NCBI GenBank assembly: GCA_022844345.1
Contig: JALHLU010000018.1
Span: 1 to 37,827, forward strand
Length of the DNA: 37,827 nucleotides
Reading direction: 5' to 3'
DNA from: Hyphomonadaceae bacterium
GTDB lineage: Bacteria; Pseudomonadota; Alphaproteobacteria; Caulobacterales; Hyphomonadaceae
The position numbers and the translations under genes were made by a program. Under the pieces are notes generated by a model. That model searched no databases. It saw only the letters and a list, made by a program, of their open reading frames with translations, and had not been told where the DNA came from. Each line of letters opens with the position of its first letter. Positions within the stretch are counted from its first letter, which is position 1. Positions 1 to 17,192 of the stretch are shown here, piece by piece.

Positions 1-108
1 TCAGATGATGTGTTCAACGACAATCATCTTGGCACTTTGATGCCGCCGTGAGCGCCGTCCACACCATCTCTGGTAAGGTCGTAGTTATCGGCCCGCGGAG
101 ATACTCCA

Positions 109-277
109 ATGACGCGAATCTCATACAAACGGCACCGCTTTCCTCCGGTTGTCATTCAGCGCGCAGTTTGGCTCTATTTCCGCTTCACGCTCAGCTTCCG
201 CGATGTTGAAGAGATGCTCGCGCATCGTGGCATGGATGTAAGCTACGAGACGGTCCGCGCCTGGACACTGAATTCCG
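109..277 (+). pseudogene. IS6-family transposase, 5' remnant
   Basis: The first roughly 56 codons match the N-terminus of the intact IS6-family transposase at 18585-19277, including the MTRISYKR start, the FRDVEEMLA segment and the SYETVRAWTL segment. Similarity stops near position 277, after which the frame runs into unrelated residues and a stop at 291. The DDE catalytic domain is missing, so this is a broken copy. Upstream DNA from about position 70 still resembles the leader of the intact copy, although the terminal inverted repeat is not recognisable. The break lies about 10 bases before the FNR/FixK box that starts the next operon. Confidence 0.85.
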
Positions 278-287
278 CGAACGCTTC

Positions 288-301
288 TTGATGGTTGTCA
301 A
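288..301. promoter_or_regulatory. FNR/FixK-type box upstream of usp operon
   Basis: The site reads TTGAT-GGTT-GTCAA, an exact fit to the FixK/Anr-style consensus TTGAT-N4-(A/G)TCAA. Its centre is about 58 bases before the start codon at 353, a spacing compatible with class II activation. A likely regulator is the Crp/Fnr protein at 4086. Binding is inferred, not shown. Confidence 0.75.
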
Positions 302-352
302 TGTAAATGAACCCGTCCTCGCAAACCTTCATTATATGGAGGCAAAGGCATC

Positions 353-1195
353 ATGAAGGACATTCTCTTTCACTTCGACAGCTATCCGGACCCTACACCC
401 GTTGAAGCGATCGATCAGGCTGTGCATTTCGCTAGTATGCTCGGTGCGGAGATCACGGCGCTGGCTGTCCAGGTTCATTTCAAGCCGTCCGGCAATTGGC
501 TCGCGGAGCGGCTGATCAACTTAAGCGGCCTTTGCGCTCACGAAGAAGAGAAGAGTCTGGCAAACTGCAGGGTGGCGATCGCAGCTTTCACAGACAGACT
601 TGCGACCGAAAATGTCAAAGGGAAAGCTCTCCTTACCAAAGCCGAGCCAGCCCTCATGGGCGATCATGTGAGTGTTCATGCCCGCACGCGCGACCTCTGC
701 CTTGTTCCACTGGTGGACAGCCTCGATGGCCAACGGTCGGTAGTTGAAGCCGTGCTGTTCGGGTCCGGTCGACCTGTCCTCCTTTACCGGCCCGGCGCTG
801 CTGACTTGCCGAGCGGTGAATTGGGATCAGTCGTACTGGCTTGGGACGGGAGCCGCTGCGCCGCGCGCGCCATGTGCGACGCGCTCCCGATCCTCCGAAA
901 AGCGCGCGAAGTGCGGGTGCTCACTGTGGTCAAGGAAAAGCCCGAGGCGACGGCGGGCCAGGGCGCGGATGTCGTTCGTCACTTGAGTCTGCACGGCATC
1001 AACGCCGTAGCCGATGAAGTCGATATCGCGGGGCGAAAGATCGGGCAGGCGATATCCGACTTCGCGAAGGCGCACCACGCCAAGCTGCTTATCATGGGCG
1101 GCTATGGCCGCTCCAAAGTGCGCGAGTTCATTCTTGGAGGTGCAACGCAGCACATGCTGCACGAACCAGACGTTGCAATCATGTTGTCGCACTGA
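353..1195 (+). CDS. Universal stress protein, tandem UspA domains
   Basis: This 280-residue protein has two UspA-like alpha/beta domains, the usual length for tandem universal stress proteins. The C-terminal domain ends in MGGYGRSKVREFILGG, a G-2X-G-9X-G nucleotide-loop pattern in which the residue after the third glycine is G rather than S/T. The first domain lacks this loop. Such proteins are cytoplasmic and help cells survive energy or oxygen limitation; the exact activity is unknown. A GGAGG Shine-Dalgarno precedes the ATG. The gene follows an FNR/FixK box at 288-301 and probably leads an operon with the fusion kinase and second usp gene downstream. Confidence 0.9.
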   Translation: MKDILFHFDSYPDPTPVEAIDQAVHFASMLGAEITALAVQVHFKPSGNWLAERLINLSGLCAHEEEKSLANCRVAIAAFTDRLATENVKGKALLTKAEPALMGDHVSVHARTRDLCLVPLVDSLDGQRSVVEAVLFGSGRPVLLYRPGAADLPSGELGSVVLAWDGSRCAARAMCDALPILRKAREVRVLTVVKEKPEATAGQGADVVRHLSLHGINAVADEVDIAGRKIGQAISDFAKAHHAKLLIMGGYGRSKVREFILGGATQHMLHEPDVAIMLSH

Positions 1196-1277
1196 AGCGA
1201 TGACCTCCTCCGCGACCTGCTGGCCGCGGTTCCGCGCACATCAGAACCACGTGCCCAAAGCGTGAAGGGAGTGGCCC

Positions 1278-2795
1278 ATGCAGGACCTGAAAGCCCTGGA
1301 CGGCGCTGAAGTGATGCAGAGACCCCTAGTTGAGGCCTTTGCCAGCGGGGTGGTAGAGGGTCTGTCGGGGTCGGTCGAGCATATCCAGACACACCTCAAT
1401 CACGTCTTTCTGTCGGGCTCGCGTGCTTACAAGCTGAAACGCGCCGTTCGGTTTCCCTTCGTCGATTTCAGAACGGTCGGCCGGCGCAAGGCTGCCTGTG
1501 AAGCAGAAGTCTTGATCAACACCACGCTCGGCAGCCCCTTCTACGTTGGCTCCACTGCAGTGGTGCGCAGGTCGGACGGCCAATTGTCGCTGGGTGGTAA
1601 CGGTGTCGCGGAGGACTGGGTGGTCGAGATGCGCCGCTTCGACAGCCGTCTGCAGTTTGATGTAATGGCGAGCAGTGGCGCGCTCTCGGTGGAATCCGTC
1701 GAGGCTGCAGCATCCGCAATCGTCGACGTGCATCGCAAAGCACCCGCGGGCCAGTTGGGTGGACACACTGCGGACTACCGACAGACAATACGCACACTTG
1801 AGCGCACAGAAGCGGAGGCAGCCGCCCGTCTCGGGCTCGAGCCGGGCCTTCCATCGCCCTTCGAGGCGCTTGATCGCGAACTGGCGCGTATCAGCCCTAT
1901 TGTAGAAAAGCGTCGGCGCGGGGGTAAGGTCCGGCGCGTCCACGGCGATCTTCACCTACGCAACATCTGCATGTTTGAGGGCCGGACCGTGCTGTTCGAC
2001 GCTTTGGAGTTTGACGATCGGATGGCGACGATCGATGTACTCTATGATCTGGCCTTCCTGTTGATGGACCTTCGGCGAGCCGAGTTGCCGCAGCATGCCA
2101 ACGCCGCCATGAACCGGTATTGGGATGCGGCAGCAGAGGACGAGGACGGGCTCGCGGTTCTGCCTTTCTTCATGGGCTTGCGAGCGGCAGTGCGTATGGC
2201 CGTCGCCGTGGCGGACGGTCGGCTTGAGGAGGCCCAGGACTACCGCACTCTTGCCTTCGGCTTCCTCTCTCGCGCCGAAGGTATGCTTGTTGCCATAGGC
2301 GGGTTGTCCGGGGCTGGTAAGAGCGCAGTCGCGAAGGAAGTGGCCCACCGGCTGCCTGGACCCGCTGGAGCGCGGCTTCTGCGCAGCGATGTGTTGCGCA
2401 AGCGCGCGCTGGGCGTGCCTCTCAATGAGCATGCTGGCGAGGATGTCTATGCCCCGGAGAAACGGGCCGAGGTCTACCGTGATCTTGCCGCTCGCGCAGC
2501 CACCGCTCGACGCGCTGGAGCCAGCGTCGTCGCTGATGCGACCTTCCGTGTGGCGAGCGCAAGAGCAACCCTTCAGTCTACAGAGAGAAGCTTTCGCGGC
2601 TTCTGGTTGGATGTGCCAGTCCACGTCAGGCTGGCGCGCATTGCAGGTCGGAGAAGCGACGCGTCTGATGCGGGTGCGCTGGTCGCCTTGAGTCAGTCGG
2701 AGCCGGGTGATCTGGGCTCCGCCTGGCGCCGGGTCGGCGGGCGGCGGCCGGTAGAGGAGATTGTATCTGACATCGTGCATGAAGCCGTGAAATGA
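1278..2795 (+). CDS. APH-like / P-loop kinase fusion protein (COG2187-COG0645 type)
   Basis: The 505-residue protein joins two kinase-like modules. The N-terminal part is aminoglycoside-phosphotransferase-like, with the catalytic motif HGDLHLRN (H222, D224) and a downstream DALEFDD segment that could supply the second metal ligand. The C-terminal part is a gluconate-kinase-like P-loop ATPase with GLSGAGKS at residues 342-349. Proteins of this architecture include Mycobacterium tuberculosis Rv2004c, a DosR-regulon member; the substrate is unknown and antibiotic resistance should not be assumed. The ATG has a strong GAAGGGAG ribosome-binding site. The stop overlaps the ATG of the next usp gene (ATGA), indicating translational coupling. 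Confidence 0.88.
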   Translation: MQDLKALDGAEVMQRPLVEAFASGVVEGLSGSVEHIQTHLNHVFLSGSRAYKLKRAVRFPFVDFRTVGRRKAACEAEVLINTTLGSPFYVGSTAVVRRSDGQLSLGGNGVAEDWVVEMRRFDSRLQFDVMASSGALSVESVEAAASAIVDVHRKAPAGQLGGHTADYRQTIRTLERTEAEAAARLGLEPGLPSPFEALDRELARISPIVEKRRRGGKVRRVHGDLHLRNICMFEGRTVLFDALEFDDRMATIDVLYDLAFLLMDLRRAELPQHANAAMNRYWDAAAEDEDGLAVLPFFMGLRAAVRMAVAVADGRLEEAQDYRTLAFGFLSRAEGMLVAIGGLSGAGKSAVAKEVAHRLPGPAGARLLRSDVLRKRALGVPLNEHAGEDVYAPEKRAEVYRDLAARAATARRAGASVVADATFRVASARATLQSTERSFRGFWLDVPVHVRLARIAGRRSDASDAGALVALSQSEPGDLGSAWRRVGGRRPVEEIVSDIVHEAVK

Positions 2796-3586
2796 AGTTC
2801 AGGGATATACTCGCGGTCGTTTCTTCTGCAGCCGACGACGGCCACGTAATCTCGTTCGCGGAGCAGTTGCGGCGCCAATGGGCCGTACGTATCACCACGC
2901 TGGTGACAAAATGGAAGCCGGATTTTGTCCTCACGAATGCTGCAGCTGACCTTAGAGCAGAGGTTGAGCGAACGACGACGCGTCTCCGGAGAGAACCGGA
3001 AGTCGGCCCCGTCGTCTCCGAACTAGTTACGATCAATGAAGCGCGAGCATCCATAGGCATGCGAGCGCGACACTTCGATGCTGTCGTCGTGGGGCGCCCC
3101 CCCGGCCCGACATCAGACTGGCCGCAGGCGCTTCTGGAGGGCGCGCTTTTCCAGTCAGGCCGACCTGTATTCGTCGTGCCGGCGGGCTGGCAGACCATGC
3201 CTGTCGGCAACAGGATAATGGTGTGCTGGAAACCGACAAGAGAGGCCGCGCGAGCTCTGACCGCGGCGCATGACCTTCTGCAGCGAGCAGACCGCGTGAT
3301 GGTGGCCACTGCAGGCTCCGGGCATCCTCAGGCCAGCATGACGAGCAAGGAAGGGGAGGATGTTGTCGCTCACCTTGCTCGCAAAAAACTCGACGTCAGT
3401 CTTCTCTCCGTGAACGCCAGCTCTCGCAGCGAAGCGGAGGCGATCCTGGAGCAGGCAATGAGAGTTAGGGCCGATCTTGTCGTCATGGGCGGCTACGGTC
3501 GTTCAGCCGCGACCCAGTTCTTCTTCGGAGGAGTTACGCGCGAGATGCTTGCTTCTTCGAACATACCGCTTCTGATGGCGCACTAG
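2792..3586 (+). CDS. Universal stress protein, tandem UspA domains
   Basis: A 264-residue universal stress protein starts inside the stop codon of the preceding fusion kinase (ATGA overlap), so the two are almost certainly co-translated. It contains two UspA-type domains joined around WKPTREAARAL, and ends with VVMGGYGRS...FFGGVTREML, the same modified nucleotide loop (GG instead of GS/GT) seen in the usp genes at 353 and 4885. It is a clear paralogue of the 4885 gene, sharing the RDILA start, the GRPV.VVP region and the final LMAH. It is presumably cytoplasmic and expressed under oxygen limitation with its operon; ligand and partner are unknown. Confidence 0.9.
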   Translation: MKFRDILAVVSSAADDGHVISFAEQLRRQWAVRITTLVTKWKPDFVLTNAAADLRAEVERTTTRLRREPEVGPVVSELVTINEARASIGMRARHFDAVVVGRPPGPTSDWPQALLEGALFQSGRPVFVVPAGWQTMPVGNRIMVCWKPTREAARALTAAHDLLQRADRVMVATAGSGHPQASMTSKEGEDVVAHLARKKLDVSLLSVNASSRSEAEAILEQAMRVRADLVVMGGYGRSAATQFFFGGVTREMLASSNIPLLMAH

Positions 3587-3900
3587 TGGTGAACATCAAG
3601 ACCGCCGGCATTTGGTGTAACGAAGATTTCTCTCACAGGTCGCACGCGCAAGCAGGCAAACGTCCCGCGGCACAATTGCGTACGGCATGCCTGTCGCTCT
3701 TGTGCGTGCAAATCCCAGCCCAGGCTTTCGTGTATTCTGTATGGCCTTGAGAATCCTCAATGCAGGACCTGCACCTGAAGGGCATGTTTGGGGAGTGTAA
3801 TGCACTAGTTCCATGGGATTTCATCCGACCTGAGAGGGTCTGCGCCCCCCGCAGATCTTCTCCGGCGTTGACCAGGAACCCGGATTCCCGCCATCGCCGT

Positions 3901-3930
3901 CGCGCCCCGCATCTGCTGATGTGGGGCGCG
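3901..3930. other. Strong GC-rich hairpin
   Basis: Arms 3901-3913 and 3918-3930 (CGCGCCCCGCATC / GATGTGGGGCGCG) pair over 13 positions with one G-T wobble around a 4-base loop TGCT. No T-run follows on either strand, so it is not a canonical intrinsic terminator. It may still end the usp operon or stabilise its 3' end. Confidence 0.6.
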
Positions 3931-4003
3931 AAGCGTTGGCAAGCGTCTGCTGATCGAGTGCGGAACCTGCAGTGTGGCGGGCCACATGCCGTTGGAATAG
4001 CGA

Positions 4004-4017
4004 CTGATCGAGATCAA
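4004..4017. promoter_or_regulatory. FNR/FixK-type box upstream of the regulator gene
   Basis: The site reads CTGAT-CGAG-ATCAA, one mismatch from TTGAT-N4-ATCAA. A -41.5 geometry would put the transcription start near 4052, leaving a leader of about 34 bases before the GTG start at 4086. This suggests autoregulation of the Crp/Fnr gene. Confidence 0.65.
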
Positions 4018-4085
4018 GTATGCTATTGTTCCAGCGCAGCTAAATAAAGAGCATGCTTTGCACTGATCGAGGAGGGGATCCGCTG

Positions 4086-4748
4086 GTGGGAGATCTGTTC
4101 AGCGACGCCCCCGGCTGGCTGGCGACCTATCAGCCGGGCCAGATCATATTCGACGAAGGTGACCACGCGTCGCATATGTACCGGGTGGAGTCCGGCTGCG
4201 TCCGCCTGCAGGTCAACGGCGTTGATGGCGAGCGCCAGATCATCAGTTTCTTGTTCAAGGGCGAGCTGTTTGGATACGCGGTCGGCAACAGGCAGATTGC
4301 TGCTGAGGCGGTGAATGAGACGGTGGTCCGCTGCTGGTCCATCTCCTCCATTCTGGCGCTGGGAACCCGCCGGCCGGAGGTCGCAATCGAGCTGGTGAGG
4401 GTCGCGGATCGCCACTTCGGCAATGTCGCCCAGCATCTGCAGCGAGTGGCCCGCCTTACGGCTACCGACCGTGTGAGATGGTTTTTCAGCGGCTTGGTGA
4501 GTTGCGATGGCTTACAACGGCGCGACGGACATCTCGATTTGCCCATGAGGCGTCGCGACATTGCGGACTACCTCGGACTGACTCCTGAAACACTCAGCCG
4601 TTCGATACTTGAACTGGAGGACGACGGTTTCCTTGAGCGGAAAGGGCGGAAGGGCTTCAGCCTGCACGGGCCTAGCCTTGAGCTGAAGGTCAAGTCACTG
4701 GATGAGCTGAAGGTCGTCTCGCGAGAGCGACAGGATGTCATGGGTTGA
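4086..4748 (+). CDS. Crp/Fnr-family transcriptional regulator, FixK-like
   Basis: The protein has an N-terminal cyclic-nucleotide-binding-like beta-barrel (YQPGQIIFDEGD, FLFKGELFGY) and a C-terminal winged helix with MRRRDIADYLGLTPETLSRSI. The E-T-L-S-R of the recognition helix matches the E..SR set by which FNR/FixK proteins read TTGAT half-sites. The N-terminal four-cysteine cluster of oxygen-sensing FNR is absent, so it is more like FixK/Dnr proteins that rely on an upstream signal. I chose GTG 4086 (220 aa): GAGGAGGGG lies 8 bases before it, while the in-frame ATG at 4053 has a weak site and would be nearly leaderless given the box at 4004-4017. Five matching boxes nearby make it the probable local regulator. 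Confidence 0.88.
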   Translation: MGDLFSDAPGWLATYQPGQIIFDEGDHASHMYRVESGCVRLQVNGVDGERQIISFLFKGELFGYAVGNRQIAAEAVNETVVRCWSISSILALGTRRPEVAIELVRVADRHFGNVAQHLQRVARLTATDRVRWFFSGLVSCDGLQRRDGHLDLPMRRRDIADYLGLTPETLSRSILELEDDGFLERKGRKGFSLHGPSLELKVKSLDELKVVSRERQDVMG

Positions 4749-4835
4749 CGTTGCCGCGTTCGATGCAGTGGCCTTCAGGGTGAGACTCATCTCGCGATTG
4801 CGTGACCCGACTATCGGTCAGACGTTTCGCAGTGC

Positions 4836-4849
4836 TTGATTTTCGTCAT
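4836..4849. promoter_or_regulatory. FNR/FixK-type box upstream of third usp gene
   Basis: The site reads TTGAT-TTTC-GTCAT, one mismatch from TTGAT-N4-GTCAA. Its centre is 42 bases before ATG 4885 and 57 before ATG 4900. With a -41.5 geometry the transcript would start at about 4884, which favours translation from 4900. Confidence 0.65.
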
Positions 4850-4884
4850 CGTACGACCGTGCCGGTTGCGGAGAATGTGTCAGG

Positions 4885-5733
4885 ATGGGAAAACCAGACA
4901 TGAGCAGCAGGGACATTCTCGCGATCATTACCTCCCAGGCCGGCGGCGAACATGTGATCGCCCTTGCGGAGCAGTTGGCCACTCAGTGCGATGGGCGCCT
5001 GACCGTGGCGCTGGTCAACTGGATGCCAAGAATTCCAGGCATCGAGGGTTTCTCAATCGCTCCCATTTACGACGAGCTGGTTCAGCAGGCCCGGAAACGG
5101 CTCGCAGGCGAGAAGACCAGGCTTGAAGAACGCCTCGCGCGCGCGCGCGGGGACGCGACGATCGAGACATTCCTGCCAGAGTTCGGGGCGGCGGGATCAG
5201 TCCTTGGGATGCGAGCGCGCCACGCCGATCTCACCGTCGTCGCCCGGCCTGAGAAGGCCGACGCGAGTTCGGCTCAGGCGGTCCTCGATGCAGCTCTGTT
5301 CGAGTCGGGCCGGCCCGTCATCTTGGTTCCGCCAGACTGGCGCGCGGCAGTGCTGGGACGGCACGTGCTTGTCGCCTGGAAGCCTACACGGGAGGCGGCC
5401 CGCGCGCTTGGCGATGCCGACGCCATCATTGCGGGGGCCGAACGCGTTAGTGTCGTGACCGTGGATGCTGGGCCCTCGAGAGGCTATGGCCAGCAACCCG
5501 GAGCTGACATTTCCGCCCACCTCGCGTTTAGAGGCGCAAAGGTCGAACTCTTCAACCTGGATTCGGGTGATCGATCAGAAGCGGCGGCCATTCAGGATCA
5601 GGCACGTTTGGTCGGAGCTGACCTCATCGTGATGGGTGGCTACGGGCGTCCGCGGCTGAGTGAGCTGATCTTTGGCGGCGTAACACGGGAGATGCTGAAG
5701 ACCGCCACTATCCCTGTGCTGATGGCGCACTGA
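4885..5733 (+). CDS. Universal stress protein, tandem UspA domains
   Basis: This protein of up to 282 residues has two UspA domains and is a close paralogue of the usp gene at 2792: both share RDILA, AEQLA/R, GMRARH, WKPTREAARAL and a final GGYGR...FGGVTREML...LMAH. The nucleotide loop again has GG in place of GS/GT. The start is uncertain. ATG 4885 has GGAG at 11 bases, but ATG 4900 (277 aa) aligns with the paralogue start and fits the predicted promoter better. It follows the regulator gene by 136 bases and has its own FNR/FixK box, so it is likely a separate hypoxia-induced unit. Confidence 0.9.
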   Translation: MGKPDMSSRDILAIITSQAGGEHVIALAEQLATQCDGRLTVALVNWMPRIPGIEGFSIAPIYDELVQQARKRLAGEKTRLEERLARARGDATIETFLPEFGAAGSVLGMRARHADLTVVARPEKADASSAQAVLDAALFESGRPVILVPPDWRAAVLGRHVLVAWKPTREAARALGDADAIIAGAERVSVVTVDAGPSRGYGQQPGADISAHLAFRGAKVELFNLDSGDRSEAAAIQDQARLVGADLIVMGGYGRPRLSELIFGGVTREMLKTATIPVLMAH

Positions 5734-6018
5734 TCCTACGGAATGCTTGTTCTGGGTGGGCGAGCTGCCCGCGTGGCTGATGGCGTCCCCGGGGCGGCAA
5801 TCTGCTTGCGTTCGGCTCTCGTCGGGTAGCTAAGTTAACACGCTCGCGGCCTGGTTGATCAGCTGAGACAGACAGTGTGGGGCGGCTGAGCCGCACGCGC
5901 GAGGACGTCGGGTCGGATGGCGTGGAACGGGGACGCCCCTTGCGCAGATGCCCGCGCGACCGACAATGCCGATTGCACCAGTGTCGGATTCTCGACATTG
6001 CAGAGCGGGGGCCGGCCT

Positions 6019-7782
6019 ATGGATGACGCTCATGACATGGCGGCTATGGTGCTGCCAGGTGTGGTATTTCTCGCAGCGACAAGTCTGCTGGTTCCTACAT
6101 TTCGAAAGCTCGGCATGAGCGCCGTTATGGCGTTCCTCGCCATCGGCGTCCTCATCGGCCCTAATATACTCGGCCTCCTGCCGGATCACATCGACTGGAC
6201 GCGTATACTTGTCCTCGATCCCGATGGCCCCGCGCGCTGGCTTGCCGAGCTTGGTGTCGTATTCCTTCTTTTTGCGATCGGCCTGGAGGTTTCCACCTCC
6301 CGGCTGTGGGCTTTGCGCCGATGGGTTCTCGGCTTTGGCCTTGCGCAGGTTGCAGTCACGGCCGTCGCTATCACGTTGATAGCGATCGCGTTCGGCAATG
6401 CGATAGCCGTCGCAGTCGTTCTCGGGTTGGCCTTTGCGCTATCCTCGACCGCGGTTGTCCTGCAGCTGCTCGGCGAAAGGCGGCAGATCTCTGGAGCAAC
6501 CGGCAAGGCTGCTTTCTCCGTGCTCCTTCTGCAGGACCTGGCCGTCATACCGATCCTCTTCGCGGTTGATGCACTGGGCTCCGGGACAGCCGTTCAGGAG
6601 AGCGGGTTCGATGGGCTCGCTGCTGCGGTGGCGACGGCATTCGCATCCGTCGCCGCGATACTGTTTGCCGGACGGTATTTGCTGCGACCGCTTTTTCGGT
6701 GGGTGGCGTCCATCGGCAGTCGCGAGGTATTCGTCGCCGCGATCCTTCTGGTTGCCGTGGCCGCCGCCCTCGCAGCAGAACTGGCCGGTTTGTCCATGGC
6801 TCTTGGCGCATTCCTCGCTGGGCTCCTCCTCGCTGAGACCGAGTACAGACACGAAATCGAAGCAGACATTGAACCCTTCAAAGGGCTATTGCTTGGGCTG
6901 TTCTTCGTCACGGTCGGTATGCAGGTTGATCTTGGCCAGGTCTTGGCGATGCCGTTGCAGATTGTTGCCGGCGTCCTCGGGCTCATCGTGGTCAAGGTCG
7001 CGATCCTTGTGCCGTTGGGTCGGGCATTTGGCCTGTCCTGGTCGCACTCGGTGGAAGTGGCCTTCCTGCTCGCACAGGCGGGGGAGTTCGCCTTCGTGAT
7101 CGTGGCGGCCGCGACGCGCGCAGAAACAATTCCAGCCGACATCGCCGATTTCATGCTCATCGTGGTGGCGCTCTCGCTATTCATGACCCCAGTCGTCGCG
7201 AGCTTAGGCGCAAGTCTGGCGAGACGCCTAACGTCAGAAGCATCTATGGTGCCGCCTGATGACGCCGAGATTGCTGATCATGTCATCATTGCTGGCTATG
7301 GACGGGTAGGGCAAACGCTGGGCGAGTTGCTGCAACAGGAGCACGTCGCGCATATTGCGGTCGACAGCGATGTGAAGCTGGTAGACGCGCTGCGGAAGCG
7401 CAGCTGGCCCATCCACTTCGGCGACGCAAGCCGGAAAGATGTTCTTACCGCGCTTGGGGCCGCCAAAGCGGCGGCAATCGTCGTCACGATGAATGAAAAT
7501 ATGGCGGTCGAGCGTGTGGTCAAAGCTGTGCGGGCGGCATGGCCGCATGTGCCGGTGTTTGCACGTGCGCATGATCCTGCTCAGGCTCGACGGCTACACG
7601 CCGCCGGGGCAACGTTTGCGCATCCGGAGACGATTGAGGCTACACTCCAGTTGGGTGATGCCTTGCTTCAGAGTCTAGGGATTCCTGACGAAGCCGTGCG
7701 GCGCCTGATCGAAGAGCGGCGGCAGCGGGAAATCGCTCGCGCCCGTGTCGCCCCATTGCCCGAGGACATCGGGGCAGATTGA
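6019..7782 (+). CDS. CPA2 cation/proton antiporter with TrkA-N domain (KefB/YbaL-like)
   Basis: An inner-membrane antiporter of 587 residues. About 12 hydrophobic segments span residues 8-400 (Na+/H+ exchanger fold, with GxEVST and LLLQDLAVIP), followed by a cytoplasmic NAD-binding TrkA-N domain starting with AGYGRVG (G426, G428, G431) and ending in a charged tail. Proteins of this class move K+ or Na+ against protons, often gated by nucleotide or glutathione conjugates. I prefer ATG 6019: it directly precedes the first membrane segment, while the upstream in-frame ATG at 5917 adds 34 Cys/Arg-rich residues unlike the family. Only a TTGAT half-site (5855) lies upstream, so membership of the FixK regulon is not supported. 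Confidence 0.9.
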   Translation: MDDAHDMAAMVLPGVVFLAATSLLVPTFRKLGMSAVMAFLAIGVLIGPNILGLLPDHIDWTRILVLDPDGPARWLAELGVVFLLFAIGLEVSTSRLWALRRWVLGFGLAQVAVTAVAITLIAIAFGNAIAVAVVLGLAFALSSTAVVLQLLGERRQISGATGKAAFSVLLLQDLAVIPILFAVDALGSGTAVQESGFDGLAAAVATAFASVAAILFAGRYLLRPLFRWVASIGSREVFVAAILLVAVAAALAAELAGLSMALGAFLAGLLLAETEYRHEIEADIEPFKGLLLGLFFVTVGMQVDLGQVLAMPLQIVAGVLGLIVVKVAILVPLGRAFGLSWSHSVEVAFLLAQAGEFAFVIVAAATRAETIPADIADFMLIVVALSLFMTPVVASLGASLARRLTSEASMVPPDDAEIADHVIIAGYGRVGQTLGELLQQEHVAHIAVDSDVKLVDALRKRSWPIHFGDASRKDVLTALGAAKAAAIVVTMNENMAVERVVKAVRAAWPHVPVFARAHDPAQARRLHAAGATFAHPETIEATLQLGDALLQSLGIPDEAVRRLIEERRQREIARARVAPLPEDIGAD

Positions 7783-7962
7783 GAAACGCCACCAACGACG
7801 GCCCATCGAATCCACAGTTTCGCGAGCTAGCCAGAAAGGCAGCAAACTCATCTAACGGCGTTGTGATGCGATCGGACGCCAAGGTGTCTGCCCGCAGGAT
7901 AGCACAACAGATTCGTACACGCTGTGCAGATGTTTGGAGGTTTCCGACAGGGTGAGATGACT

Positions 7963-7976
7963 TTGATCAAGATCAT
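7963..7976. promoter_or_regulatory. FNR/FixK-type box upstream of fourth usp gene
   Basis: The site reads TTGAT-CAAG-ATCAT, one mismatch from TTGAT-N4-ATCAA. Its centre is about 63 bases before the TTG start at 8033, leaving room for a -10 element and a leader of about 20 bases. Confidence 0.7.
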
Positions 7977-8032
7977 CCTCCGCGGTTGAACTTGAATGCT
8001 CGAGGGATGTTTGCGCTGCCCGGGAGCTCCAG

Positions 8033-8908
8033 TTGAAGCATATCATGGTCGCCACGGATTTTTCGGAGCGGTCGGATCGTGCGCTGCGTCGCGCAACCCT
8101 CCTGGCAAAGCAGTTCGGCGCGCGTCTCTCGCTCGTCCATGTCGTCGACGATGATCGGCCACAAAGGATGCTTGAGAAGGAGCGTGATCTGGCGTCACAG
8201 CTTCTGGACGAGACAGGCGCCTCGGTACGAGGTCATGACGGGGTAACCTGCGACACTCGCGTGGTGCTGGGTGCTTCCTTTGCCGGCATACTGAAAGCTG
8301 TCGAAGATGGAGGTCCAGATCTGCTCGTGATCGGGCCGCACAGGAGACAAGAGCTTCGTGATATATTCGCCGGGACAACAGCAGAACGCACGATACGCTC
8401 GGCTTCCTGTCCGGTCCTTATGGCCAATGCTCCACCTGCCGGCGCCTATCGCAGAATCTTGCTGACAACAGATTTCTCCGAAGAGGCGCGCCGTGCGGTC
8501 GATGCGTTTGTGGCCTTGGGGATGGGGCATGGTTCCGAGATCAGCCTATTGCACCTCTTTGACGTGATGGCTTTTCGCCTCGCCATGGCTGGTTCGATGA
8601 CCGAAAGCAGCCGGATCACATATCTTGAAAACGTGCGCGATGAGGCAAGGAAGGAGCTGGTATCGTTCGCGCAGGCGGCGGCGCTCAGGAGTGTGAAGCA
8701 GATAGCGCGTGAATCACGAAGCTCGACCGCGCTCGACATCCTTGCGGAAGCGAAGGAGACCTCCGCGGACTTGATAGTGGTCGGCACACGAGGCCGAAGT
8801 GGTCTGGGCAAGTTCCTGTTGGGAAGTGTGGCGGAGGAGGTGCTCAGAAGCGCCGATCGCGACGTTCTGGCGGTCCCTCCTCGGAAGAACGCCACGGCAA
8901 CCCAGTAA
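8033..8908 (+). CDS. Universal stress protein, tandem UspA domains, ATP-binding type
   Basis: The 291-residue protein has two UspA domains, each starting with the typical VATDFSE / LLTTDFSE strand. The second domain ends with the full ATP-binding signature GTRGRSGLGKFLLGS (G-2X-G-9X-G-S), unlike the other three usp proteins here, so it is the one most likely to bind ATP. The first domain has a degenerate loop (GPHRRQELRDIFAGT). I used the TTG at 8033: it gives the canonical MKHIMVATDFS start, and GGGAG precedes it by about 7 bases; an in-frame ATG lies at 8045. It stands alone behind an FNR/FixK box and belongs to a different UspA branch from its neighbours. Confidence 0.9.
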   Translation: MKHIMVATDFSERSDRALRRATLLAKQFGARLSLVHVVDDDRPQRMLEKERDLASQLLDETGASVRGHDGVTCDTRVVLGASFAGILKAVEDGGPDLLVIGPHRRQELRDIFAGTTAERTIRSASCPVLMANAPPAGAYRRILLTTDFSEEARRAVDAFVALGMGHGSEISLLHLFDVMAFRLAMAGSMTESSRITYLENVRDEARKELVSFAQAAALRSVKQIARESRSSTALDILAEAKETSADLIVVGTRGRSGLGKFLLGSVAEEVLRSADRDVLAVPPRKNATATQ

Positions 8909-9261
8909 ACTGACTATGGCTGCCGCCTTCCTCGGTTCGAGCCAGCCCGGGTAGGGCCACAGGGTCGGCCAGCAAATCCCAGAGTTGTTTGCAGATGCGC
9001 TGTTCGGGTCAACTCAGGTGATCCTGGTCAAGGGCGGAACCCGTTTACTGCTTTATCTATCCGGTGATTGCTGATTCAGCCGGGAGTACGCGTTGAGTTC
9101 AACAAGGCCGAGGCTTCCAGACGCTTGTTGGCGGACTAGGTTTGGCTCTCTGACGCACCACCCAGCCTATGGAAGGCTTCCTGAGGATACTGGAGCGGAC
9201 ACTTGTTTCCGTGACTCGATCCGCAATTTCCCGGAGATAGCTCTGATCAAAGGCGAAATTC
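8909..9261 (+). other. Intergenic region and long leader of the P-type ATPase gene
   Basis: No gene is visible in these 353 bases. An FNR/FixK box lies at 9018-9031, and an AT-rich stretch at 9051-9060 (CTTTATCTAT) about 32 bases after its centre could be the -10 region. That would leave a leader near 195 bases before ATG 9262. I recognise no known riboswitch in it. Confidence 0.5.
9018..9031. promoter_or_regulatory. FNR/FixK-type box upstream of P-type ATPase
   Basis: The site reads GTGAT-CCTG-GTCAA, one mismatch from TTGAT-N4-GTCAA. It lies 237 bases (centre) before ATG 9262, farther than at the usp genes. Confidence 0.55.
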
Positions 9262-11991
9262 ATGAATGATCAGCGCTCTCAAGCCGTCGCTGATGCCGTC
9301 CGCGCTTACGCACTGCCTGTCGAGAGCGTGCTGACGTCGGTTGAAAGTCGGCTGAGCGGCCTCTCCGAAACGGAGGCTTTGGACCGGCTGGAGAGGTTCG
9401 GGCCGAACCAGATGCCGGACCCGCCCCGTCGTAGCTCCGTCCTCCGCTTCCTGTCACATTTTCACAACGTGCTCATCTACGTCCTGATGGGTGCAGCAGC
9501 CATTACCGGCGCGCTGGGTCATTTTGTCGACACCGGCGTCATTCTCGCAGTGGTGATCGCCAACGCCGTCATCGGGTATGTTCAGGAGGGCCGGGCCGAA
9601 CAGGCGATGGACGCAATTCGGCAGATGCTTGCCCCCAAGACATCAGTATGGCGTGATAACGAGCGCCGCACGATTGACAGCGCAGGCGTCGTGCCCGGCG
9701 ACATTGTCCTGCTTGAAGCGGGTGAGAAAGTTCCCGCAGACGTGCGGCTCGTGGAAGCCTCCGGCTTGCGCGTTGAAGAGGCGATTCTCACAGGTGAATC
9801 CGTTCCCGCCAGCAAAGGCGTGAAATCGGTCTCCGTAGACGCGGCTCTCGGCGACAAATCATCCATGGCCTTCAGCGGCACATTGATCGCAGCCGGCGCC
9901 GGGCGCGGTGTCGTCGTTGCGACGGGCGCGTCGACAGAAGTTGGACGCATCAGCGGCATGCTGTCCACGGTGGAAACGCTCACCACTCCCCTGGTCCGTC
10001 AGATGGACGCGTTCGCGCGATGGCTTACGATCCTCATCCTTCTGCTTTCCGCTGTCCTGCTGACGTATGACTATTTCGTCGGTCACAGGCCGTTCGCCGA
10101 GACCTTCATGGTCGTAGTCGGCCTGGCGGTCGCCGCCATTCCGGAGGGATTGCCCGCAGTCCTCACGATTACGCTTGCCGTCGGCGTTCAGGCGATGGCG
10201 CGGCGCAATGCTATCGTCCGCCGCCTGCCAGCGATCGAAACACTGGGTTCGGTGTCGGTCATCTGTACCGACAAGACCGGCACGCTCACCCGCAATGAGA
10301 TGATGGTGACGACCGTTGCAAGCGGCAACCATATCTACACGGCGACTGGGAACGGCTATGCTCCGGAGGGCGGCATCCTGCTTGGCGGTGATGCGGTCGA
10401 CCTTGCAGACCATATGCAGTTGCAGGCGTTCGCCGTCGCCGCAGGATTATGCAATGACGCCGCGCTCCACAGCGATGCAACTGGCTGGAAGGTTGAGGGA
10501 GATCCCATGGAGGGGGCCCTCAAGGCCCTTGCCGGGAAGATCACGAAACGCGGTGTGGATCCGTTCGCCGAATGGCGGCGGCTGGATGCAATCCCCTTCG
10601 ACGCAAGACACAGATATATGGCTGTTCTTTACCGCGCTGCCGATGGCGGCGTCCACATCCATGTGAAAGGCGCTCCCGAACGGCTTCTTGAGATGTGTTC
10701 GTTCCAGCAGGCTTCCGACGGAAGAGTTGAGCCTCTGAACGCCGGCTACTGGCGTGAGCGGATCGACGACATTGCAGCGCAGGGCCGGCGCGTCCTTGCC
10801 CTGGCGACACGATCAGCGTGTCTCGAACATGAGGTTTTGAAAGAAGCCGATCTCGCCGAGGGGCTGGTGCTCATCGGACTGGTCGGCCTGATCGATCCGC
10901 CGCGGCCGGAAGCAGTCGCCGCTGTTGCAGAATGCCACCAGGCGGGAATTCGGGTTAAGATGATCACCGGGGACCACGCTGGGACCGCATCGGCAATCGC
11001 GCGCCAGATCGGCCTTGAGAACCCCGGCAAAGTGCTTACAGGCGCTGACATTGAGAGGATGGATGACGCTGCGCTGGCGGCGGTCGTGAGTGATACGAGC
11101 GTCTTCGCGAGGACCAGTCCTGAGCACAAGCTGCGCCTTGTGACGGCCCTGCAATCTCACGGCTTGACGGTGGCGATGACGGGCGATGGCGTCAATGACG
11201 CGCCCGCCCTGAAGCGAGCGGATGCCGGAATCGCTATGGGCCAGAAGGGCAGCGAAGCGGCCAAGGAAGCAGCCGAACTTGTTCTGGCTGATGACAACTT
11301 TGCATCGATCGTCGCAGCAGTCCGCGAGGGGCGCACTGTCTACGACAATATCAAGAAGGTGATCAGCTGGACGCTGCCCACAAATGCCGGCGAGGCAATG
11401 ACGCTGGTTCTGGCGTTGCTGTTGGGTCTGGCGCTGCCGATAACTGCTGTTCAGATTCTGTGGATCAACCTTATCACCGGCATCACACTCGGGATCGCGC
11501 TGGCGTTTGAGCCCACCGAGGAAAACACGATGAGGCGGCCGCCAAGACGACGCGAAGAGTCGCTGTTGTCCGGTGAGCTGGTCTGGCACATCGTGCTTGT
11601 GTCCATGTTGTTCCTCGCTGCTGTCTTCGGCATGTTCGCCTATGCTGTTGACAGGGGTTATCCGCCTGAACTTGCGCAGACGATCGCGCTGAACACACTT
11701 GTGGTGCTGGAGATCTTCCATCTGTTCTTCATTCGCAATCTCTACGGTACATCCTTGAGCTGGAAGGCGGTGCGGGGCACGCCTGTCATCTGGACATGCG
11801 TCATCGCGATCACGCTCGCGCAGTTTGCTGTCACCTATCTGCCGCCACTCCAGCAGATATTTGGCACGCAGGCCGTACCTCTCTTCGATGGTGTCCTGAT
11901 AGTCGTGGTAGGCGTCACCTTCTTTGCCGTGATCGAGGTCGAAAAGCAGCTCCGGCTCGTCTTCCGCCGGACCGCCAGACCGGGCTCGTAG
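9262..11991 (+). CDS. Cation-transporting P-type ATPase, P2-like (PacL/CtpF type)
   Basis: A 909-residue inner-membrane ATPase with every catalytic hallmark: cation-ATPase N-domain, actuator motif LTGES, PEGLPA in M4, phosphorylation site DKTGT with D337, and the hinge motif MTGDGVNDAPALK. About ten hydrophobic segments are visible, four after the hinge. In M6, where Ca2+ pumps have N-x-x-T-D, this protein has NLITGITLG, so the key acidic ligand is missing and calcium transport cannot be assumed. The family includes M. tuberculosis CtpF, a DosR-regulon pump, which fits the usp-rich context. ATG 9262 is preceded by AAAGGCGAAA. An FNR/FixK box lies about 240 bases upstream. Confidence 0.93.
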   Translation: MNDQRSQAVADAVRAYALPVESVLTSVESRLSGLSETEALDRLERFGPNQMPDPPRRSSVLRFLSHFHNVLIYVLMGAAAITGALGHFVDTGVILAVVIANAVIGYVQEGRAEQAMDAIRQMLAPKTSVWRDNERRTIDSAGVVPGDIVLLEAGEKVPADVRLVEASGLRVEEAILTGESVPASKGVKSVSVDAALGDKSSMAFSGTLIAAGAGRGVVVATGASTEVGRISGMLSTVETLTTPLVRQMDAFARWLTILILLLSAVLLTYDYFVGHRPFAETFMVVVGLAVAAIPEGLPAVLTITLAVGVQAMARRNAIVRRLPAIETLGSVSVICTDKTGTLTRNEMMVTTVASGNHIYTATGNGYAPEGGILLGGDAVDLADHMQLQAFAVAAGLCNDAALHSDATGWKVEGDPMEGALKALAGKITKRGVDPFAEWRRLDAIPFDARHRYMAVLYRAADGGVHIHVKGAPERLLEMCSFQQASDGRVEPLNAGYWRERIDDIAAQGRRVLALATRSACLEHEVLKEADLAEGLVLIGLVGLIDPPRPEAVAAVAECHQAGIRVKMITGDHAGTASAIARQIGLENPGKVLTGADIERMDDAALAAVVSDTSVFARTSPEHKLRLVTALQSHGLTVAMTGDGVNDAPALKRADAGIAMGQKGSEAAKEAAELVLADDNFASIVAAVREGRTVYDNIKKVISWTLPTNAGEAMTLVLALLLGLALPITAVQILWINLITGITLGIALAFEPTEENTMRRPPRRREESLLSGELVWHIVLVSMLFLAAVFGMFAYAVDRGYPPELAQTIALNTLVVLEIFHLFFIRNLYGTSLSWKAVRGTPVIWTCVIAITLAQFAVTYLPPLQQIFGTQAVPLFDGVLIVVVGVTFFAVIEVEKQLRLVFRRTARPGS

Positions 11992-12174
11992 CAGTCCCTC
12001 GACAGAGGTCGGGCTCGCAACCTCTGCCGGCGCAATGCAGTCGGCAATGCTGACGCCATGTGTCCTGAAGTCTGGAGCACCGTGCGTGATCTCTCCCCGA
12101 TCAAAGAGGGCCATCTTCGGCTGACGTTGGCGTGTTGAATCCATGATACCAAGGATCCCCACGCTGAGGGCGCC

Positions 12175-12185
12175 GTCAGACCTAC
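12175..12185 (+). repeat. IS6-like terminal scar (11 bases)
   Basis: GTCAGACCTAC matches exactly the left end of the intact IS6 copy (18524-18534) and abuts the first base of the IS3 remnant. It may be the stub of an IS6 element interrupted by the IS3 insertion. An 11-base match alone is weak evidence; its position at a module boundary strengthens it. Confidence 0.4.
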
Positions 12186-12590
12186 TGAGGTGCTCCCCAA
12201 CTTTGGACCACCCGGGCGCAGAGTTTTCGACCCGTTTCGCGCCCGGCGGGCTGGTTGCGCCGGGGGCGTAGTGGAATGCAGCCCGGGGGTTTGTTCCCGA
12301 TCGCGCTGTGTGGTCGTCGCTCGTTGCAGTCTCTGCGCCAAGCTTCCAGCTTTTCGCAGGCGTCTTCGAGCCCCAGGAGCCAGTGAGCGTTGAGGCACTC
12401 AGCGCGGAACTGGCCATTGAAGCTTTCCATGAACGCATTGTCGGTCGGCTTACCAGGGCATGAGAAGTCGAGCGCGACGTCATGCTGATACGCCCACAGA
12501 TCGAGATCGCGGGAGACAAACTCCGAGCCCTGATCGATCCTGATCCGCTTCGGATAGCCGGTACGCCGAAACGTCAAACGGAGAGTCGGT
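12186..12590 (-). pseudogene. IS3-family transposase, 3' remnant
   Basis: On the minus strand this encodes the last about 130 residues of an IS3-family OrfB integrase-type transposase. The segment has IRIDQGSEFVSRDLDLWAY (second catalytic D) and FMESFNGQFRAECLN (catalytic E), followed by the usual W..DCNERRPHSAIG tail. The N-terminal part, including the first catalytic D, OrfA and the left end, is missing: similarity breaks at about 12590. The probable element terminus is TGAGGTGCTCCCCAAC at 12186. It is therefore inactive and marks a rearrangement junction between the P-type ATPase and the ABC exporter genes. Confidence 0.85.
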
Positions 12591-12699
12591 GTTCACTCTT
12601 GAACAAGTGGGTCATCGCAGCTGAACAGAATCAATCGCGGGATCCGCAGGTGTCGTAAGGTCAGGACCGACAAGGCAATTGCCGCCTTAGTCCGATCCA

Positions 12700-13884
12700 T
12701 CAGTCCGCGCCGAGTTTAAGCAGTGGTGTTCTTGCTGCGCGAAGTGCGGGCAGTATCCCGCCCAGAAGGCCAAGCAAGAGCGCTAGCTGGATGCCGGCCA
12801 GCACCTGCTGCGGTCCGATGTTGAAGTCGAAGACCACCTGCGTGAATCCGCCGCCGAGGGTTGAGGCAGTCAGCCCGTTGAACAGCAGGTACGCGGCGCC
12901 CGCGCCGACGAGACCGCCTGCGAGCGCCAGCACAATGGACTCGGTGATCGCCCCGGCGAAGGCTGGAAGACCGCCGAAGCCGATGGCGCGCAAGGTTGCA
13001 AGTTCCTTGCTGCGCGCCTCGACCGCCGCATACATGGTGTTCAACGCGCCTGCGAGTGCGCCGAAGCCTAGCGTTATGGAAAGCACCCAACCGAAATACA
13101 CCAGGTACTGGAGTGACTGAGCTTCGCTGGCGAAGTGTTCCTTCTCGGTCTTAACATCGACTTGCAGTCGTGGCTCGCTGTCAACAAACGACTTGATCTC
13201 GGCGAGCGCCGAGGTGGACTCAAGGCGGGCGCGCAGCGCCTGAACGGTTGGGCCCCGATTGAACAGGCTCTGGACCACGGGAAGGTCGGCCCACAGTTCG
13301 CTGTCGAACACGGTTCCGGGAACCTCGAAAATGCCGACCACCTTCCAGGCGCTGCCGCCGAGCTGCAATTCGGTGTCGAGGTCGAAGCCTCTGAACTCGC
13401 GAACGACGCCGGCGCCCACAATCATCTCGTTTGTGCCGGGTTCGAACATTCGGCCCGAGCTAAGACGAAAGCCCGTGCGTAGTTCCGGCGCCCGACTGGT
13501 TACGCCGCGCAATGAAACGTTGGCCTCGCCGCCTCCGGCTCGCCTGTTTGCGCCAACAACGACATAGAGTTCTGGGGAGGTGATTGGTCTGCCTGCGGCG
13601 TCGCGCGCTATGCCGGGCGCCTCCTCGAGCAGGCGCACAGATTCCGATGACATGGTCGAGTTGAGTTCTGCTTCCGAACCAGTGCCGAGGATCATGGCAA
13701 TGTCATCAGAGCCTGTCCCGGCAACCGTCTTCGTGAATCCGTTCGACATGGCGAGGAAAGCCAGGAGAGTGGCGACAACGAGCGCGATCGAGAGGATCGT
13801 TGTGACTGAACCCCAGAAGCGGCTGGGTAGGCCCCCAATGGTCATGCTGACGACAGCCGCCACCTGACGGAAAAGGGAGGTCAT
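12700..13884 (-). CDS. ABC transporter permease, FtsX/MacB type (second permease)
   Basis: This 394-residue inner-membrane protein has the FtsX/MacB permease layout. One N-terminal membrane helix near residues 20-45 precedes a periplasmic domain of about 220 residues, then three C-terminal helices (YFGWVLSITLGFGALAG, AITESIVLALAGGLVGAG, LALLLGLLGGILPALRAA). It is the last gene of the exporter operon, starting 3 bases after the stop of the first permease. Although it ends about 110 bases from the IS3 break, its C-terminus is complete for the family. It probably forms a heterodimer with the permease at 13888 and works with the ATPase at 15048. Confidence 0.88.
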   Translation of the reverse strand: MTSLFRQVAAVVSMTIGGLPSRFWGSVTTILSIALVVATLLAFLAMSNGFTKTVAGTGSDDIAMILGTGSEAELNSTMSSESVRLLEEAPGIARDAAGRPITSPELYVVVGANRRAGGGEANVSLRGVTSRAPELRTGFRLSSGRMFEPGTNEMIVGAGVVREFRGFDLDTELQLGGSAWKVVGIFEVPGTVFDSELWADLPVVQSLFNRGPTVQALRARLESTSALAEIKSFVDSEPRLQVDVKTEKEHFASEAQSLQYLVYFGWVLSITLGFGALAGALNTMYAAVEARSKELATLRAIGFGGLPAFAGAITESIVLALAGGLVGAGAAYLLFNGLTASTLGGGFTQVVFDFNIGPQQVLAGIQLALLLGLLGGILPALRAARTPLLKLGAD

Positions 13885-13887
13885 ACG

Positions 13888-15051
13888 CTAGATCCTCCTG
13901 AACGCCGTGATGACGTTGACACGCATGGCGTTAAATGCCGGGACAGCGCCTGTGATGAAGCCGAGCGCCGCCATGAATCCAGCGGCCGAGAGCGCGATCT
14001 GCGTCGTTATCCGCATGCCGCCGAAGAACTGGTTGAGGGCCGGAATGCTGCTCAGCGTGTGGGTCAGTACACTTGCCAGCGCGAGCCCGAGCATGCCGCC
14101 TAGCAAGGCCAGCAGAAGGGTCTCGCCAACGACAATCCGGCCGATCCGACCCGACGTGAAGCCCAGTGTCTTCATGACCGCTATCTCGCCGGTACGCTCG
14201 CGGATCGCTCCTGCCATTGCATTGCCGACGATGAGAAGGATGGTAACAAATGCGGCGCCCGTGACGCCCAGGATGATGAGCCCGATATTGCCCTGCTGAT
14301 CAATGAAGGCGGCGTTGAACGCCTGTTCGGAAAGAGTTTCCGTTTCAGCGCGCGAGTTTGCGAACTGGCCGTCGACGCGACTGGCGACAGCGTCGTTCTG
14401 CGAAGCATCGGTCGTGACGATCTGAATGATGCCGATCGTGTCGTTGGCGAAAGCGCGAGCTTCGTCGAGATACTCGAAATGCATAAAGACAGAGCCTGTT
14501 GACGTGCTCGTATCCTTGCCGTCGAAGATCGCGCGTATGACGACGGGCCAGACGGATGTGCCGTCACGCCGGCGCCAGATGTTGGACGACAAGGGTATCT
14601 GCTGACCAAGCTGCCAGCCATACTGTTCTGCGACTGCGCGGCCGACCATGATGCTGTCGCGATTTGTGATGAAGGCCTGACGCTGGTCTGCCGGCATCAC
14701 GAACTCGCTGTAGATGCGCGTGTAGCTTTCTGGCTCGACCGCAAAGGTCAGGAGGAAGTTGCGCGGCTCCTGATAGTAGCCGCCAAACCAGTTCGAGTAG
14801 CTGACGTCAGCGACCCCCTCGATGCCCTGAATGCGATTTACGTATGCGAGCGGGAGTGGCTGGGTGAAATTGATGCGATTCGCAACGACAACCCGGTTGC
14901 TGGACGAAACGCCCGCCGCGTTCTCGAGCGAGGACTGGAAAGCCGCGAGCACGCCGTAGATCAGGAACGCGATGAAGATCGCGAAAATCAACAGGCCCGT
15001 CCGCAGAGGCTTTCGCCCCAGTCCCGACAGGATGAGGCGGAAGTCGCTCAC
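13888..15051 (-). CDS. ABC transporter permease, FtsX/MacB type (first permease)
   Basis: The 387-residue inner-membrane protein has an N-terminal helix (TGLLIFAIFIAFLIYGVLAA), a periplasmic MacB-like domain, and three C-terminal FtsX helices. Its ATG overlaps the stop of the ATPase gene by 4 bases (15048-15051), showing tight coupling. FtsX-type permeases of this kind usually act as mechanotransmitters that drive export through the membrane-fusion partner rather than carrying a substrate across the inner membrane. Two separate permease genes suggest a heterodimer, unlike MacB, where ATPase and permease are fused. Substrate unknown. Confidence 0.88.
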   Translation of the reverse strand: MSDFRLILSGLGRKPLRTGLLIFAIFIAFLIYGVLAAFQSSLENAAGVSSSNRVVVANRINFTQPLPLAYVNRIQGIEGVADVSYSNWFGGYYQEPRNFLLTFAVEPESYTRIYSEFVMPADQRQAFITNRDSIMVGRAVAEQYGWQLGQQIPLSSNIWRRRDGTSVWPVVIRAIFDGKDTSTSTGSVFMHFEYLDEARAFANDTIGIIQIVTTDASQNDAVASRVDGQFANSRAETETLSEQAFNAAFIDQQGNIGLIILGVTGAAFVTILLIVGNAMAGAIRERTGEIAVMKTLGFTSGRIGRIVVGETLLLALLGGMLGLALASVLTHTLSSIPALNQFFGGMRITTQIALSAAGFMAALGFITGAVPAFNAMRVNVITAFRRI

Positions 15052-15737: not shown

Positions 15738-15761
15738 GGCATCGTCGCTCCGGGTCGGTCT

Positions 15762-16787: not shown

Positions 16788-17192
16788 ACCCGTCCGCCTA
16801 GCATTATTCGACTCACCTTACTGGCGAGTGGTCAAACGCGATTGTCCCAGGTCTCGGTACGCAAGCCGGGGACGAGCGGATTGGGTGGCAACAGTCGGCC
16901 GATAGCCAATCATTCGATCTTGAGGATAGGGCGCAAAGCGCCGCCACCCGGAACTAGCGCGCTCTGCCATCTGTGAGGCGTTCCGCTGCCTTGGCTATGG
17001 ATGGAGCGGGGCGTGGTTGTTCGGCGCCGCCAGAGACGGGTTTTGGCCCGGGCGCAAGTGACGCATGGCTGGGGCGACTTCTTCCAATGACAGAAACCCG
17101 ACCTTTCGACTGTGCCTGCCGCAGCGGCGCGCCTTGCGTGTGGGTTGACGTGCGCGCAAGGTTGGTGCGCGTTGGCATCGTGGAGATTGTGA
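16788..17192. other. Divergent intergenic region between ABC exporter and P450
   Basis: About 405 bases separate the minus-strand exporter operon from the plus-strand P450 gene, so promoters for both must lie here. I see no FNR box, strong hairpin or convincing small gene. Open frames present lack ribosome-binding sites and family resemblance. Confidence 0.5.

Follow-up and report, generated by a model that had tools for sequence, protein, structure and literature searches.

In this study we examined a gene island in the first 12 kb of contig JALHLU010000018.1 (C18) of a Hyphomonadaceae bacterium, whose genome of 4.19 Mb lies on 18 contigs. The window that we analysed is the whole of this contig (37,827 nucleotides). 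The island probably represents a low-oxygen stress regulon of the FixK/FNR type with a FixK-like regulator of its own; this reading is built on sequence comparison. The evidence that carries it is the density of FixK-type boxes in front of the island genes, the conservation of three of these boxes where the island core is duplicated, and the company that the same box keeps elsewhere in the genome.

FixK-type boxes, scored here as TTGAT-N4-RTCAA with at most one mismatch, occur at five places in the island, all on the forward strand. Box 1 (TTGATGGTTGTCAA, 288-301) has no mismatch and lies upstream of three genes, encoding a universal stress protein (Usp 1), an APH-like phosphotransferase fused to an AAA_33 kinase domain (APH-AAA) and Usp 2. 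Each of the others has one mismatch: box 2 (CTGATCGAGATCAA, 4004-4017) is upstream of the regulator gene; box 3 (TTGATTTTCGTCAT, 4836-4849) is upstream of Usp 3; box 4 is upstream of Usp 4 and has two overlapping readings (at 7957 and, as TTGATCAAGATCAT, at 7963) that together span 7957-7976; and box 5 (GTGATCCTGGTCAA, 9018-9031) is upstream of a P-type ATPase gene. Usp 1, Usp 3 and Usp 4 are thus each preceded by a box, and Usp 2 would belong to one operon with Usp 1 and APH-AAA behind box 288, judging by the gene spacing.

An earlier reading of the letters of this DNA (the original prediction) had named these five sites, and our recount of their mismatches and positions agreed with it. We then counted matches in the seven intergenic stretches of the first 12 kb (1,822 bp with the gene starts as called) and found six pattern windows at the five places. 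In 500 dinucleotide shuffles the mean was 0.12 and the maximum was 2, so that none reached six; the original prediction had expected about 0.1 such sites in 2 kb of intergenic DNA, close to this mean. The coding DNA of the island (10,173 bp) contained no match at up to one mismatch. Weaker figures came from other yardsticks. At whole-genome density 0.47 matches would be expected per 12 kb, and at up to two mismatches the whole window held 54 matches against 34.6 expected. In a scan of 13,312 strict palindromes (five-base half-sites, spacers of 0-12, up to one mismatch), TTGAT-N4-ATCAA was in a three-way tie for the top with three windows. This result is weaker because a strict palindrome leaves out the G/A and C/T variants. 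TGATC-N2, which shared the top place, fits two of the sites (4004 and 7963) without a mismatch on visual inspection and is therefore largely the same signal.

The island core, a run of Usp, APH-AAA, Usp, regulator and Usp genes, is duplicated on contig C7 of the same genome, with gene order and strand unchanged. In a BLAST comparison of the window with C7:14-74 kb, positions 284-3584 aligned with C7:30718-34029 (78% identity) and 3846-5733 with C7:34278-36159 (82%). The proteins of the two islands are 79-90% identical, and the regulator paralogue on C7 is 90% identical. The counterparts of boxes 288, 4004 and 4836 are TTGACGGTTATCAA at C7:30722, TTGATCGAGATCAG at C7:34434 and TTGACTTGCGTCAT at C7:35262. 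We also found a variant FixK-type box that had been overlooked, the forward-strand palindrome TTGAGAATCCTCAA at 3747-3760, whose counterpart is TTGAGAATCGTCAA at C7:34169. Over these four boxes 49 of 56 columns (88%) are identical between C18 and C7, compared with 392 of 632 (62%) in the other ungapped intergenic alignment (Fisher 4e-5, with columns that are not independent). Among the seven differences, three are the T/C or A/G changes that the consensus allows and two swap which end is mismatched. Box 2 carries its mismatch at the first base on C18 and at the last on C7 (CTGAT..ATCAA and TTGAT..ATCAG), leaving each copy one step off the consensus. Thus, the boxes are probably real, because the second core copy has kept them.

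The box is also in excess across the genome. The perfect pattern TTGAYNNNNRTCAA occurs 25 times, compared with 4 for a backward control, and at up to one mismatch there are 164 forward matches in 4.19 Mb compared with 43 for the control. Six of the 25 perfect boxes fall within 85 kb (C18 plus C7:30-77 kb, 2% of the genome), where 0.5 would be expected (binomial 9e-6), in an interval picked after the sites were known. A simple gene caller placed 12 of the other 19 between genes and 7 inside called genes. Intergenic perfect boxes stand upstream of nrdJ and moaA (named by their Pfam domains), of a double-MFS/FtrB-like gene pair on C13, and of a C9 gene with a weak, sub-cut-off Usp match. A box with one mismatch at C5:131423 separates ccoN from a short gene that leads on to hemN. 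Because the same box precedes these microaerobic and anaerobic genes, it looks like the box of the host's low-oxygen/nitrate regulon. On C7, a relative of the island's P-type ATPase (C7:66069, 64% identical) follows a Usp gene that itself has a perfect box, at C7:65040, in front of it.

The regulator gene (4086-4748, forward strand) encodes a Crp/Fnr-family protein, probably of the FixK type, 220 residues long when read from a GTG codon. The original prediction had begun it at ATG 4053. GTG 4086 is the likelier start because a ribosome-binding-site-like GAGGAGG lies at 4069 and, on C7, a stop codon interrupts the frame upstream of it. Pfam models PF00027 (cNMP-binding fold) and PF13545 (HTH_Crp_2, the Crp-type helix-turn-helix) both score over their cut-offs. 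FixK2 is the best match among solved structures (PDB; E 7e-21) and FixK is the best NCBIfam model; the placement in this group is by best match. FixK proteins are defined as those of the FNR/FixK group in which the iron-sulphur cysteine set is missing (PMC2908626). As had been predicted, the protein combines an E..SR recognition helix with a lack of iron-sulphur cysteines. Its helix reads PETLSR, and P-E-T-(L/V)-S-R is found in all six aligned members of its subfamily. The N-terminal set of four cysteines that FNR uses for its 4Fe-4S cluster is absent from the regulator, whose only cysteines, counted from GTG 4086, are C38, C83 and C140.

These cysteines bear on how the regulator might sense its signal, which in the original prediction had to come from elsewhere. 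That was too strong. C38, within GCVRLQ, is present in 6/6 subfamily proteins and in none of three further FNR/FixK-like proteins from the host genome that were aligned with them; two subfamily proteins (one of those in genome G294 and that of genome G053) were left out of the alignment. The invariance of C38 in the subfamily makes a thiol-based input within the regulator itself conceivable. C140 is common to the regulator, its C7 copy and the protein of genome G009 only, and C83 to these three and a C5 protein. The redox residue Cys183 of FixK2 is not kept; the regulator has an arginine at the aligned residue, where the solved FixK2 chain has a serine.

The subfamily is rare. At E<=1e-35 it was present in at least 5 of 398 sampled genomes of the order (its own included) and in at least 1 of 385 genomes of the class sample, which was its own; these counts are lower bounds, with up to seven candidates scored per genome. 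A first search of genome contigs gave no close relative of the regulator, and a second, with a three-row alignment, gave one. On plasmids, 1,063 records match the regulator, all at below 60% identity; among the 30 matches listed, identity is about 35-37% and all are from Sinorhizobium. The regulator in G009, 48% identical over its length, lies between Calvin-cycle genes (aldolase, PGK, GAPDH and transketolase) and a cytochrome c'-like gene on contig C33 (the whole neighbourhood at 8779-17240 of the examined stretch). Its 55 kb contig has five perfect boxes: one each before the regulator, DnaJ and cytochrome-c-like genes (the last a borderline Pfam match), one inside a called Usp gene and one inside an unnamed ORF.

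A box precedes most of the subfamily's regulator genes that were tested. It is found, at up to one mismatch and within 250 bp upstream, before 5/7 subfamily genes: those of the island and C7, which are not independent, those of G009 and G116, and one of three in G294. Seven of eight subfamily genes could be scored, as the G053 gene stands at the very edge of its contig, with no upstream DNA. By comparison, only 1/9 other Crp/Fnr genes tested in the host genome has such a box. These nine come from 14 HTH_Crp_2 matches, which include the two island genes and three sub-cut-off matches that were left out (C9:131535, C10:70547 and C3:334896) and that look like other helix-turn-helix proteins. The autoregulated FixK-type regulon of the original prediction is thus well supported as a regulon by the site statistics, the C7 conservation and the boxes at microaerobic genes. 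For autoregulation, what we found is a conserved upstream box, which makes control of the gene by its own product plausible.

The boxes may also be placed as activator sites. Over 22 hand-picked sites, likeness to TATAAT reached its maximum at a distance of 21-23 bases downstream of the box (on average 1.73-1.86 of 6 positions, against at most 1.64 at other offsets from 10 to 49), which is where class II FNR promoters carry their -10 element; the effect is weak. Box 9018 is followed 22 bases on by TATCTA (at 9054), and box 4836 is followed 21 bases on by GAGAAT, which is GATAAT on C7. Boxes 288 and 7963 have poor -10 matches. A sigma-70 promoter scan of positions 1-12000 returned 2 matches, and shuffled sequence gave 2.9.

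Based on these comparisons, we propose a model for how the island might work. FixK-type dimers would bind the TTGAY-N4-RTCAA-like boxes and activate transcription as oxygen falls, and the output would be four Usp proteins, the APH-AAA kinase-like protein and the P-type cation ATPase. We infer that the island regulator binds these sites, that oxygen is the signal, that the effect is activation and not repression, and that the promoters have class II geometry. The box before the regulator gene may provide positive, or limiting, feedback. It may also let other FixK-type regulators of the host turn on the cassette.

Several results weigh against this model. The KefB-like gene at 5917-7782 has no box of its own at up to one mismatch, and box 9018, besides its mismatch, is 237 bp away from its gene. 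Of the six perfect boxes in C18 and C7:30-77 kb, three fall within called reading frames (31355 inside a Usp gene, 69931 and 76167 inside called ORFs). Taken singly, the conserved boxes are not exceptional: among 545 ungapped windows of 14 columns, 72 equal boxes 288, 4004 and 4836 in identity and 33 equal box 3747. Sites with at least 4/6 TATAAT matches do not pile up at 21-23 bases, and 2/7 subfamily genes have no upstream box. The regulator scores 114.1 bits against the NCBIfam FixK equivalog NF050806, whose cut-off is 300, and so is FixK-like but not that equivalog; this cut-off is likewise missed by two further FixK-like proteins that the genome encodes (117.7 and 167.3 bits). Finally, the genome encodes four proteins with E-T-x-S-R helices, the island regulator included, and the three others (the C7 paralogue and those at C5:134 kb and C7:50.6 kb) could use the same boxes.

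This last point leads to an alternative that we regard as a real possibility, though somewhat short of an even chance. The boxes would be real FixK/FNR boxes worked mainly by these other regulators, and the island regulator would be downstream, minor or differently tuned, like FixK1 and NnrR under FixK2 in Bradyrhizobium. FNR, FixK and DNR are reported to recognise virtually one motif (PMC2908626), and FixK2 has genes for further CRP/FNR regulators among those that it activates (PMC9104804). With a shared motif and several such regulators in one genome, the island regulator may not be alone in using the regulon. However, an upstream box is a feature of the subfamily and is scarce before the other Crp/Fnr genes tested in the genome, and the G009 regulator of the same subfamily is also in a box-rich contig. 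Around the FixK-like gene at C7:50.6 kb there is no FixLJ pair among the 10 neighbouring genes; no genome-wide search for FixL or FixJ was made. Another FNR-like protein is encoded on C10 (7640-8338 of the examined stretch). It has an N-terminal CxxCx5C motif and a Q-V-H-V-S-R helix in place of E-T-x-S-R, and its target motif may differ.

We think it rather unlikely that the island regulator represses its own gene, with box 4004 acting as the operator of a negative feedback loop and not as an activator site. FixK2 of B. diazoefficiens is reported to be auto-repressed (PMC9104804), and the -10-like sequence after box 4004 is a poor match (3/6). Yet the C7 counterpart of this box has a 4/6 match at the same place, and the 75 bp from box 4004 to the start codon are similar to the distances at the other boxes. 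That a degenerate consensus, picked after the sequence had been viewed, was matched at these sites by chance can be set aside as very improbable: four of the five are mismatched, the strict palindrome ties for the top with two others and the genome-wide density would give 0.47 matches per 12 kb, but no shuffle reached the observed count, and the conservation in the second island and the excess over the backward control (25 vs 4 and 164 vs 43) already contradict it.

A broader form of the low-oxygen regulon seems improbable to us, more so than self-repression. The island would be a portable, self-contained low-oxygen dormancy cassette of a rare FixK sub-lineage with Cys38 as a possible redox input, present twice in the genome with cross-acting autoregulated regulators, and with a structured small RNA driven by box 3747 from hairpins at 3822-3944. 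The stretch between Usp 2 and the regulator (3586-4090) does contain two long predicted hairpins at 3822-3944 (forward strand), an uncertain candidate for a leader or small RNA. Its fold is very stable in the window (minimum free energy z-score -6.2), and the C7 copy lacks this stability (z -0.4). We rejected a conserved RNA structure for this reason and because, of 42 predicted pairs, a single one has changed on both sides. In a scan of the whole window, Rfam gave no family at gathering score for 3586-4090; at E<=5 there was a single match, to a human long non-coding RNA model (E 4.7). Of 105 genomes from the family, one held a DNA relative, and this was the host genome itself. We also rejected ORF 3760-4047 as a gene running over box 4004, because it has no Pfam match and a weak codon bias.

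The island genes all lie on the forward strand. Usp 1 (353-1195; Pfam Usp E 1.5e-11) is followed by APH-AAA (1278-2795; assigned by Pfam, C7 copy 82% identical) and Usp 2 (2792-3586; E 5e-11). Beyond the regulator, Usp 3 (4900-5733; E 1e-13) starts at ATG 4900 by the C7 alignment and not at 4885 as first assigned. A KefB/KefC-like CPA2 cation/proton antiporter (5917-7782; Pfam and NCBIfam) comes next and has no match among the proteins compared. Usp 4 (8033-8908; E 6.8e-54 over two stretches) has tandem Usp domains, and the last gene is the PMR1/SERCA-like P-type cation ATPase (9262-11991; Pfam and NCBIfam TIGR01522), which stays under the curated cut-offs of the PMR1/SERCA models, at 630 bits against 798 for TIGR01522.

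Farther along, Pfam finds an integrase core at 12182-12577, an IS240-type DDE transposase at 18558-19277 and a further transposase piece at 33210-33530. At the left end of the window, a transposase fragment (109-291) that resembles by eye the start of 18558-19277 stops just before box 288. These transposase genes and fragments suggest that the island is mobile or rearranged. The window also has RND, multicopper oxidase and TonB genes. A further box with one mismatch (CTGATCCAGGTCAA, 24690-24703, minus strand), outside the range of the original prediction, lies 121 bp upstream of a minus-strand ORF of 143 residues (ending at 24575, no Pfam match), with TonB and multicopper oxidase genes adjoining. 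On C7, the region 14-77 kb is a large stress region in which the paralogous island is accompanied by DabA and proton-antiporter genes, more Usp genes, a zinc alcohol dehydrogenase, a PHA synthase, a second APH-AAA-like protein (53% identical) and another FixK-like regulator.

The mycobacterial DosR dormancy regulon resembles the island in part of its gene content, and DosR is a two-component regulator, a type unrelated to the Crp/Fnr regulator of the island. Many Usp genes belong to the DosR regulon, and Rv2004c has the APH-AAA architecture. The calcium P-type ATPase gene ctpF is under DosR (PMC9180918), and Rv2004c is a further partial likeness (PMC5483032).

Other likenesses are found among Alphaproteobacteria. 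B. diazoefficiens FixK2 is likewise a FixK-type regulator without iron-sulphur cysteines, and it acts at TTGA(T/C)-N4-(A/G)TCAA boxes (PMC9104804); published FixK2 and FnrL boxes include one-mismatch and TTGAG forms that resemble the boxes of the island (PMC9104804, PMC2908626). Bradyrhizobium has microoxia-induced Usp proteins, some of them linked to FixK2, and the B. diazoefficiens CRP/FNR gene bll6060 and Usp gene bll6069 have neighbouring locus numbers (PMC9104804, PMC6515984). FixK2 differs in that it depends on FixLJ and has Cys183, where the island regulator has an arginine. The alphaproteobacterial FNR/FnrL core regulon (Dufour et al. 2010; R. capsulatus FnrL) uses the same box, and its targets include uspA, ccoN, hemN and the regulator gene (PMC2908626, PMC4634722), whereas FNR-type proteins sense oxygen through a 4Fe-4S cluster, for which the island regulator lacks the cysteines. 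Sphingopyxis granuli TFA has two FNR/FixK proteins (fnrN/fixK), the box TTGAc/t-N4-g/aTCAA and a uspA box centred at -41.5 (PMC7713065); a Usp island that is self-contained and duplicated does not figure in what we cite from that work.

Systems of this kind are therefore already known: uspA has been placed under FNR/FnrL boxes in Rhodobacter and Sphingopyxis (PMC2908626, PMC4634722, PMC7713065), and part of the FixK genes are autoregulated, possibly only 20 of 76 (Dufour et al., PMC2908626). We found no paper on this type of island in the open-access literature searched, and the island adds an example to the known kind. According to Dufour et al., Nitrobacter, Bradyrhizobium and Rhodopseudomonas aside, FixK proteins have no targets in common and their roles are unknown (PMC2908626). 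The island would give one FixK-like regulator of this group a clear local target set. Its two diverged copies are a natural mutagenesis experiment on the boxes. Last, it adds to the cases in which genes for Usp, APH-AAA and P-type ATPase proteins seem to be controlled by low oxygen, and may be compared with the mycobacterial DosR set.

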